In this document: positions 2,334 through 4,445 of the stretch, in pieces
How the letters are laid out: each line of letters begins with the position of its first letter
Numbering within the stretch: the stretch's first letter is position 1
IMG/VR virus record: IMGVR_UViG_3300048927_000810
Location: 1 to 40,209 of that record
DNA: 40,209 bases
Direction: 5' to 3' (one strand)
Origin: a virus
Notes under the pieces: model-generated
What the model saw: only the letters and a program-made list of their open reading frames with translations
Databases searched by the model: none
What the model was told of the DNA's origin: nothing
Made by a program: the position numbers and the translations under genes

Positions 2334-2622
2334 TGGCCACCCGTCCTTCGCCGGGCATCGGCAGGCGCATCTGGATGACGTTGTCCGTTGGCGCAGCGAT
2401 CGCGGGCAGCACCTTCCGGGCGATACGGGGTGGCCGGTTGACGCGGCGCCATTCGGCCAGGGCAGCGTCCGGCTCCGCGTGCTTGCTGGTAGACCGGCAG
2501 CGGCATTCGACCAGGTGGCCGCCGCCGGCGGCGAGGCCGCGCAGATCGTGGATGTGGCGCGCGCTGTGGCCGGCGGCGCACTTGGGCAGGCCCTCGGGGT
2601 GGCTGATGTGTCGCTGGGTCAT
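2326..2622 (-). CDS. Small Cys/His phage protein, possible zinc-binding
   Basis: 98 residues. The first half carries CAAGHSARHIHDLR followed by HLVECRCRSTSKHAEP, giving a Cys-x3-His and a Cys-x-Cys that could form a zinc knuckle; the second half is basic and Pro-rich. Similar proteins with a C..GH.ARHI pattern occur, as I recall, in phages of Xanthomonadaceae and Burkholderia, without known function. The ATG overlaps the methyltransferase stop (ATGA), and the stop overlaps the start of the DUF4224 gene, so it sits tightly inside the operon. Co-expression with the methyltransferase suggests a DNA-related role, which is inference only. Confidence 0.72.
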   Translation of the reverse strand: MTQRHISHPEGLPKCAAGHSARHIHDLRGLAAGGGHLVECRCRSTSKHAEPDAALAEWRRVNRPPRIARKVLPAIAAPTDNVIQMRLPMPGEGRVASG

Positions 2623-3659
2623 GCTCGTATCTCCGGATAGCAGTCCATGTAGGCGCCGATCACTTCGGCCGCGACTTGCGGGACGATGGCGTTTCCGTAG
2701 GCGCGCAGGCGTCCAGCTCGGGCGGGAACCCCATGAGCCAGCAGACGAATGCTGGGTTCAACGCGCCGGAGTTTTCCGTCGTGGCCGACGAGCCAGCTGG
2801 CTCCATCCCAATGGCCACGCTCGACAAATACAGGCCGTGACGACCGTCCAACTGGGACGGCGGAATCTTCGTGGTGCGGTTCTCGTTCGCCGACGCACGC
2901 GGGGTCGGATAGAGAGCTACCGCAGCTTGAGACACTGCCGCCAAGTCCGGCCCATGGCTGCGAGCTGCCTCCCTGATAGCACCCTCCGTCGAGCGCACCC
3001 CCTTGTCCGCGAGCGAGGCGGTCGGCGTCGGCCACAGGCCTGCAATTCGGGGATCGTCCAGCGGTGCCGAGACATTCACCACGACCGTGGTGAGGGACTC
3101 CTGAGATCCCTTCGCGTCCCCGCGCCTCCGCTGATAGCCCAAGCGCGCTTCGTGCGCCATTGGCGTGGGCCACAAACCACAGGCGGTCGCGCCGGTGGGG
3201 CGCGTTGACGGCACAAGCCGGGACAACGGTCGCCCCGCAGGCGTAGCCGATTCCTTCCAGGTCAGTGAACACTCCGTCGATCCAGTCCTTGCCAACCGCC
3301 GCCGCAACCTGCTCTCCCATAAGGACAGCGGGCCGGCGGGCACGGGCGAGGCGAAAAAGGTGGGGCCACAGGTGCCGATCGTCAGCCTGGGCTTTACCTT
3401 TGCCTGCGACGGAGAACGGCTGGCACGGCGCGCTGCCGGTCCAAAGTTCCCGGTCGTCGGGCCACCCAGCAAGTCGAGCTGCGAGGGACCACCCGCCGAT
3501 TCCGGCGAAGAAGTGGCATTGTCGATAGCCTGCAAGGTCGTCGGGCTCAACATCGGTGATGCTCCTGGTGTCGACGTCGCCGGCAGGGATCAGGCCCTTG
3601 GCGATGAGGTTGCGCAGCCACTGAGCGGCGTGGGGTTCGAACTCGTTGTAGTAGTTCAC
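2619..3659 (-). CDS. C5 cytosine-specific DNA methyltransferase
   Basis: Transfers a methyl group from S-adenosylmethionine to C5 of cytosine in a specific DNA site; in phages this usually protects against host restriction or alters regulation. The 346-residue protein shows motif I FAGIGG (51-56), the catalytic motif IV PCQPFS with Cys79, motif VI as GEQV (115-118) in place of the common ENV, motif VIII HRRDRLWF (155-162) and motif X GNAIVP (322-327). The stretch between VIII and X, normally the target-recognition region, is Gly/Ser/Asp-rich here and is the stretch most affected by a second reading frame. The GTG start is supported by the typical MNYYNEF beginning and an AAGGG about 8 bases upstream. 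No partner restriction endonuclease is visible, so it is probably solitary. Confidence 0.93.
   Translation of the reverse strand: MNYYNEFEPHAAQWLRNLIAKGLIPAGDVDTRSITDVEPDDLAGYRQCHFFAGIGGWSLAARLAGWPDDRELWTGSAPCQPFSVAGKGKAQADDRHLWPHLFRLARARRPAVLMGEQVAAAVGKDWIDGVFTDLEGIGYACGATVVPACAVNAPHRRDRLWFVAHANGARSALGLSAEARGREGISGVPHHGRGECLGTAGRSPNCRPVADADRLARGQGGALDGGCYQGGSSQPWAGLGGSVSSCGSSLSDPACVGEREPHHEDSAVPVGRSSRPVFVERGHWDGASWLVGHDGKLRRVEPSIRLLAHGVPARAGRLRAYGNAIVPQVAAEVIGAYMDCYPEIRA
2660..3553 (-). CDS. Out-of-frame gene nested in the methyltransferase, WPTP-repeat protein
   Basis: A 297-codon frame lies entirely inside the methyltransferase gene in another phase of the same strand. Its ATG (3551-3553) is preceded by AGGAG at 3562-3566 with an ideal 8-base spacer. 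The product contains ESRLRRRL followed by GSTECSLTWK (80-100), three copies of a (L/G)(W/Y)PTPxA motif at about 127, 173 and 214, and LNPAFVCWLMGFPPE at 265-279. I remember this combination from stand-alone phage and bacterial proteins that accompany C5 methyltransferases, which makes a chance open frame less likely. There is no obvious catalytic motif; function is unknown. It could instead be a widely mis-annotated shadow frame in GC-rich DNA, so I keep moderate confidence. Confidence 0.5.
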   Translation of the reverse strand: MLSPTTLQAIDNATSSPESAGGPSQLDLLGGPTTGNFGPAARRASRSPSQAKVKPRLTIGTCGPTFFASPVPAGPLSLWESRLRRRLARTGSTECSLTWKESATPAGRPLSRLVPSTRPTGATACGLWPTPMAHEARLGYQRRRGDAKGSQESLTTVVVNVSAPLDDPRIAGLWPTPTASLADKGVRSTEGAIREAARSHGPDLAAVSQAAVALYPTPRASANENRTTKIPPSQLDGRHGLYLSSVAIGMEPAGSSATTENSGALNPAFVCWLMGFPPELDACAPTETPSSRKSRPK

Positions 3660-3805
3660 CCGGCACCCTTAGGCAGCTGGGTGCGCAGGTCGCGCGGGGG
3701 CGTGACAGTGGAGAGGGTGGGGAGGGATGGCCGTCGACTACCAGGCAGAGCGTTGGCATGGAGCCGGTGATAAGCTCCGGCCCAATGCTTAAGGAGAGTG
3801 AGCAA

Positions 3806-4279
3806 ATGACGAATTACGCGGCGTTGGAAAGGGATGCGTTCGTTGTGGAGCAGGATGGAGTCGTAGCGACGATTCACATGCATCGCTCCGACGCTGGATG
3901 GAGCGTTCATGTGATGACGGCCCAAGATCCGAATGGCGACACGATTTTCTTCGGTCACGCGATGGGCGTCTTTGCGACGATTGATCAAGCCCGAGATGTC
4001 GGAACTACCGTCGCTAAACAGCGGATCGAGGCAATTCTCGGAAGAGCCGCGAGCGGAGGTGGCTTCACCCTTCGCGCCGGTGCGCTCGAAAAGCGCCATA
4101 GCCCCGGCGCTTTCGACGCTGTAATTGAAGTTTTTGATAGTGCCGAGAATCTCACTGATCGACACTTCATAAAGGTCATCAACGACCCTGGGCAGACCCA
4201 CGAACAAGCCCGAGAAACTGCGAGGCGTGGACTCGACCAAGTGAGCGGTGTCGATGACCAAGGCAAGTTGGTTATCTGA
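3806..4279 (+). CDS. Hypothetical protein, plus-strand gene inside the leftward operon
   Basis: 157 residues, no family recognised. The ATG at 3806 has AAGGAG at 3791-3796, nine bases upstream. Codons show a strong purine bias at position one (roughly 70 percent by eye) and a soluble alpha/beta-like protein (HMHRSDAGWSVHVMTAQDP, then a helix IDQARDVGTTVAKQRIEAI). It is divergent from the methyltransferase and convergent with the small gene at 4272-4445, which it overlaps by 8 bases, so it looks like a cargo gene dropped into the operon against its direction. The complementary strand is also open in the same codon register (3656-4285) and starts and stops exactly at its neighbours' ends; I judge the plus frame better but not certain. 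Confidence 0.65.
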   Translation: MTNYAALERDAFVVEQDGVVATIHMHRSDAGWSVHVMTAQDPNGDTIFFGHAMGVFATIDQARDVGTTVAKQRIEAILGRAASGGGFTLRAGALEKRHSPGAFDAVIEVFDSAENLTDRHFIKVINDPGQTHEQARETARRGLDQVSGVDDQGKLVI

Positions 4280-4445
4280 CTTCATTCTGCAGCTCCTTCG
4301 GGGAGTTTCGCTGGCGGTCGATCAATAGCTGGACCTGTCCCTGCAGGTTGGCGGCCACGTCGCACCAGTTGGTGGGAGCCTGGTGGCTCATTGCGTGCAG
4401 CTGGTCGCGGATGCTTTCCAGGTCCTGCAGGAGGGAGTCAGCCAC
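4272..4445 (-). CDS. Small hypothetical protein of the early left operon (57 aa)
   Basis: A short gene read from the GTG at 4443-4445 to TAA at 4272-4274. The product begins MADSLLQDLESIRDQL and continues through NWCDVAANLQGQVQLLIDRQ, a mostly helical, acidic-to-neutral protein. Its GTG overlaps the TGA of the preceding gene (GTGGCTGA), the same tight coupling used along the whole operon, which is the main evidence that it is real. It has a single Cys and no recognisable domain. Function unknown. Confidence 0.65.
   Translation of the reverse strand: MADSLLQDLESIRDQLHAMSHQAPTNWCDVAANLQGQVQLLIDRQRNSPKELQNEVR

Follow-up and report, generated by a model that had tools for sequence, protein, structure and literature searches.

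A nested +1 reading frame in phage C5-cytosine methyltransferase genes and the probable recognition half of the enzyme

Two-polypeptide C5-cytosine DNA methyltransferases include M.EcoHK31I and the similar M.EaeI, and in M.EcoHK31I the small polypeptide is encoded within the large gene in another frame. The large polypeptide of M.EcoHK31I carries motifs I–VIII and X, with motif IX on the small second polypeptide (PMC3404938). M.AquI is also made of two polypeptides (PMC3404938). Its split lies in the variable region, motifs IX–X are on the small subunit and the gene is not nested. The multispecific methyltransferases of Bacillus phages SPR and phi3T are single chains, in which tandem recognition modules of ~40 residues stand before motif IX.

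The locus described here lies in IMG/VR virus record IMGVR_UViG_3300048927_000810 (positions 1 to 40,209; this whole stretch of 40,209 nucleotides is called the window), and consists of a large polypeptide, alpha, and a nested open reading frame, beta. It is likened to M.EcoHK31I by the motif layout, with motifs I–VIII and X on the large polypeptide and motif IX on the small one; as in EcoHK31I, too, the small gene lies within the large one in a different frame. In M.EcoHK31I, however, the recognition domain has been assigned to the large polypeptide, whereas here a conserved modular region is found in the nested frame, and EcoHK31I is part of a restriction-modification system, whereas the alpha/beta loci are orphan genes of phages and prophages. 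The likeness of the beta modules to those of SPR and phi3T is one of layout rather than of demonstrated homology to their TL-type recognition domains. Single-chain mycobacteriophage enzymes (the Fancypants gp73 group, alignment A4) have the same PTP modules, motif IX and catalytic core, but there everything is in one frame, without a selected nested gene. The nested protein is the same as PHROG 1008, the “Mte8-like protein” of phages K1G/K1H, which is annotated beside the methyltransferase, and the nested CDS of Paenibacillus phage Pagassa and Xanthomonas phage PhiXhv-28; in these phages it is named “DNA methyltransferase” or has no function assigned. The two-polypeptide C5 methyltransferase is therefore known, and what is new is a probable recognition half in the alternative frame. 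Few long genes nested on the same strand and proven to be under selection in both frames are known from bacteria and phages, and a literature search found no paper discussing the alpha/beta overlap in phages. We consider it very likely that alpha and beta are one two-polypeptide C5-cytosine methyltransferase, coded twice in the same DNA.

The locus and its two frames

Alpha (2619..3659, minus strand) is the large polypeptide of a C5-cytosine DNA methyltransferase, with a GTG start and 346 residues, and was matched by Pfam PF00145 (E=1.6e-17) and phrog_363 (E=4e-81). Motifs I, IV (PCQ), VI, VIII and X follow in the order expected of this enzyme class. The catalytic motifs I–VIII (CHFFAGIGGW, PCQPFS, GEQV, APHRRDRLW; 3165..3521, minus strand) form invariant columns in alignment A3, which also contains motif X (GNAIVPQVAAEVI; 2658..2696, minus strand), within which the beta stop codon lies. 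In place of the usual ENV, motif VI has GEQV, of which E, Q and V do not vary among the 26 relatives aligned in A3. In the AlphaFold2 model, the catalytic domain is predicted with confidence and matches M.HhaI and M.HaeIII (the HhaI fold). What alpha lacks is the motif IX that usually precedes motif X in the same chain. Residues 180–284 (2808..3122, minus strand) are predicted to be disordered (pLDDT ~33).

Beta (2660..3553, minus strand) starts with ATG, encodes 297 residues with the putative recognition modules and motif IX, and lies entirely within alpha on the same strand at an offset of +1. In this phase, position 3 of a beta codon is position 1 of an alpha codon, and alpha position 3 is beta position 2. 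The initial annotation, which first pointed to a 297-codon frame inside the methyltransferase, was thus right about its presence at 3553–2660, and also about its own AGGAG (3562..3566, minus strand) 8 nt before the ATG (3551..3553, minus strand). Its observation that GNAIVP in one frame and APTETPSSRKS in the other are coded by the same DNA likewise holds in the window sequence.

The start signals themselves are under visible preference among relatives. The ATG is formed by an alpha Asp codon, GAT, and the following G; 145 of 163 relatives use GAT here, whereas its share at nearby Asp codons is ~45%. Similarly, GGAG arises from an Arg codon together with the Ser codon after it, and this Arg codon reads AGG or CGG in 107/180 relatives, compared with 37/265 among upstream Arg codons. 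The enrichment of both signals points to independent initiation of beta.

An integrase gene adjoins the alpha/beta locus on the IMG/VR virus contig, whose closest relatives include Stenotrophomonas prophages. Upstream of alpha are two long ORFs on opposite strands, 3656–4285 (minus) and 3758–4279 (plus). The terminal TGA of the former overlaps the alpha GTG; it gave no match in a Pfam search, and the latter gave none in a PHROG search.

Selection on both frames across relatives

The window sequence alone is only suggestive of a nested gene, and synonymous shuffling of its methyltransferase codons left the +1 frame free of stops in 2.2% of trials. A total of 280 related loci were considered with it (281 with the window), gathered from viral contigs and one-per-species bacterial genomes; part of the searches were queried with the methyltransferase, so that the collection was not selected for the nested frame. 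Both frames were present and overlapping in the same phase in 281 of 281 loci, and in ~270 of these alpha reaches motif X and beta reaches motif IX, according to HMM-based counts, which were used for the totals because a regex scan for the motifs covered only a subset of loci. Further methyltransferase lineages, those of Hades-like mycobacteriophages, of Paenibacillus phages and of a plasmid from Paenibacillus (~45–60% GC), have the nested frame in this same phase too. A clearly broken alpha frame was seen in only two loci (L120 and L165), and in these rare cases the beta frame is kept at least partly.

The nested overlap extends over ~600–1,170 nt across hundreds of phage and prophage genomes. 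The overlap in the window, proposed earlier to be one of the longest same-strand pairs, is long but no record, with relatives reaching ~1,170 nt. Stand-alone homologues near phage methyltransferases, which had been suggested for the motif set, did not turn up either: beta was sought on its own in viral contigs, genome contigs, phages and plasmids, and every locus examined overlapped a methyltransferase, all 281 in the same +1 phase. Existing annotation is uneven in this respect. Both ORFs are annotated in K1H, Pagassa and PhiXhv-28, only the methyltransferase in N15, epsilon15 and BcepC6B, only the nested ORF in FoX4, and neither in SAP012; in phage P and Cy-LDV1, the CDS annotated in the region misses at least one frame. 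In FoX4, SAP012 and phage P, where only beta or neither frame is annotated, the methyltransferase frame nevertheless overlaps in the same +1 phase.

Stop codons were then counted in each frame against the number expected from the codons of the other. Given the alpha codons of 85 distinct loci, synonymous shuffling predicted 197 ± 10 stops for the +1 frame, where none was observed, while the +2 frame was close to expectation (732 vs 827 expected). Conversely, given the beta codons of 190 clusters, 368 ± 16 stops were expected in the alpha frame between motif VIII and the C-terminal motifs, and again there were none; in this same middle region, the third frame had 683 stops vs 658 expected. The zero counts in both directions mean that each frame is kept open along the full overlap. 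The single-chain genes provide a built-in negative control for this openness, since the +1 frame of their catalytic part has stops at the level of chance (40 vs 39.5 expected).

Substitutions per codon were followed by alpha position (1/2/3) in thirty non-overlapping pairs. In the alpha N-terminus outside the overlap, the usual pattern was obtained (.075/.055/.269). Divergence at the third position is reduced in the catalytic overlap (.077/.043/.152), and in the middle region the values (.311/.172/.186) have the periodicity of the beta frame, position 1 exceeding position 3 in 28 of the 30 pairs; in the closest pairs this region gave.204/.059/.054. The catalytic and C-terminal parts are therefore constrained in both frames and the middle only in beta. 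This middle coincides with the disordered stretch of alpha (residues 180–284), which is unconstrained except for staying open.

The four-fold degenerate sites of alpha give the same picture at finer scale. Upstream of the beta ATG 25–36% of them differ, and over the first ~70 beta codons, which encode a weakly constrained and predicted disordered segment, 14–27%. They are almost frozen over the beta core (2–9%, beta residues ~72–120), stay low in the middle region (9%) and over motif IX (8–9%), and rise to 20–33% from motif X on, so that constraint on these sites tracks the protein domains of beta. Together with the stop counts and the divergence by codon position, they bear out the proposal of a second gene coded inside the methyltransferase, and they amount to purifying selection in both frames. 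No stand-alone homologue turned up among the loci examined, and constraint was not confined to the methyltransferase frame. Beta is a real protein-coding gene under selection, alpha is kept open to motif X, and the nested arrangement is real, widespread and selected in both frames.

Modules and motif IX of the nested protein

Beta matches phrog_1008 (E=1e-29), a family named “DNA methyltransferase”; it had no match in Pfam or NCBIfam, and a PDB sequence search found nothing. Its best-defined part is a predicted helix-strand-strand core (residues 75–118, SLWESRLRRRL...SLTWKES...RLVPS; 3200..3331, minus strand), with pLDDT 80–89, over which the alpha four-fold sites are nearly frozen. The model is confident only there, moderate over motif IX and low in the modules (pLDDT ~50–60). 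A Foldseek comparison of this low-confidence model with viral models returned four matches below 1e-3, the named ones being phage members of the same family (the eiDWF methyltransferase and FoX4) and so not independent evidence.

The core is followed by three modules. Module 1 (WPTPMAHEARLGYQ...; 3035..3172, minus strand) recurs in low- and high-GC phage relatives and is conserved only in the beta frame; module 2 (WPTPTASLADKGVRS...; 2912..3034, minus strand), which belongs to the module families, and module 3 (YPTPRASANENRTTK...; 2810..2911, minus strand) are included in alignment A1. The motifs noted initially are all present, except that the “repeated WPTP” is strictly WPTP in two modules and YPTP in the third. 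Across relatives the modules begin with W/L/Y-P-T-P, have a median length of 36 residues and number 1–5 per protein in most members. Module families are shuffled between proteins, the same family occurring at different ordinal positions, and in this they look like swappable target-recognition units, which suggests that the enzyme may be multispecific.

Motif IX is in the beta frame (LNPAFVCWLMGFPPELD; 2711..2761, minus strand), near-invariant in alignment A2 and aligned to LAAAFPEWMMGWPAGW of the single-chain enzymes. The C-terminal end of beta, LNPAFVCWLMGFP-EW, has the pattern of motif IX and its position, directly before the alpha-frame motif X (GNAIVPQ). A profile of the single-chain enzymes stopped short of motif IX of solved enzymes in its alignment, and the motif IX call is therefore based on the pattern, on its position ahead of motif X and on the relatives with a single chain. 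Among proteobacterial loci placed by the regex scan, motif IX occurs only in the +1 frame; more generally, loci with split frames have it in the beta frame, and the single-chain mycobacteriophage enzymes have it in the main frame.

In these Fancypants-group enzymes, the same modules and motif IX share a single frame with motifs I–VIII and X. The beta profile aligns exactly to their recognition region plus motif IX (hhalign, E=8e-9), and identity between individual modules of the nested and single-chain forms reaches 70%. By sequence, beta and the single-chain C5 methyltransferases thus have the same modules and motif IX, and beta appears to be part of the methyltransferase itself, a point missed in the initial annotation, and to carry the probable DNA-recognising half of the enzyme. 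Sequence searches tied neither beta nor the single-chain C-terminus to any solved recognition domain.

Some loci have mixed arrangements. The actinophage loci L291 (Fancypants), L286 (SchottB) and L304 have their first PTP modules in the +1 frame, but further modules or motif IX follow in the main frame, which looks like a change of frame through an indel or programmed frameshifting. In the Paenibacillus polymyxa plasmid pAP1 (L356, 2622–4112), the nested frame has four WPTP-type modules, followed by two tandem motif IX ends with stops between.

Proposed assembly of the enzyme, competing readings and meaning

In the arrangement that we propose, alpha would bind SAM and catalyse methylation through motifs I–VIII and X, its middle serving as a disordered spacer. 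Beta would be made in the +1 frame from its own ribosome-binding site and ATG, supply motif IX together with several WPTP modules in a row as target-recognition units, and pair with alpha to give a working enzyme. We infer that both proteins are made and come together, that the modules recognise DNA and that methylation counters host restriction.

A programmed frameshift could instead join alpha motifs I–VIII to the beta modules in one chain, much as the modules come after motif VIII in one chain in the mycobacteriophage relatives, and some actinophage loci do carry modules in both frames. This is improbable, however, because alpha is held open through the middle to motif X, which would not survive a single shift, constraint on the beta frame is seen far upstream of motif VIII, and beta has its own enriched ATG and GGAG. 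Somewhat less probable again is that beta is a real overprinted gene with an unrelated job, for instance an anti-restriction or regulatory protein. The absence of a Pfam or PDB match and an N-terminal part without known counterpart would suit such a role, but beta has the motif IX that alpha lacks, its modules match those within single-chain methyltransferases, and beta was never found without alpha in the 281 loci. That only the methyltransferase is real and the nested ORF a by-product of high G+C and conserved codons is hardly credible: the genome is GC-rich with many spurious long ORFs and the open +1 frame had P=0.022 in the window alone, but the missing stops across relatives (0 vs 197 expected) include lower-GC ones, the middle has beta-frame periodicity, alpha four-fold sites are frozen, the start and Shine-Dalgarno sequences are enriched, and single-chain enzymes have +1 stops at chance level. 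A chance ORF was accordingly rejected on stop counts and substitution patterns.

A two-polypeptide methyltransferase coded twice in the same DNA would explain why so many phage C5 methyltransferases seem to have neither motif IX nor a recognition domain that can be identified, and likewise how a large PHROG family without a methyltransferase domain came to be named “DNA methyltransferase”. It would also mean that recoding codons when cloning an annotated ORF destroys beta and gives dead enzymes. A broader proposal, to which we give slightly less than an even chance, is that phage multispecific C5 methyltransferases may carry tandem exchangeable recognition modules in the alternative frame of the catalytic gene. 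If this is true, specificity would change by module shuffling in one frame, and the other frame need only stay open; and if the modules read DNA, they would constitute a natural set of swappable C5-methylation specificities.
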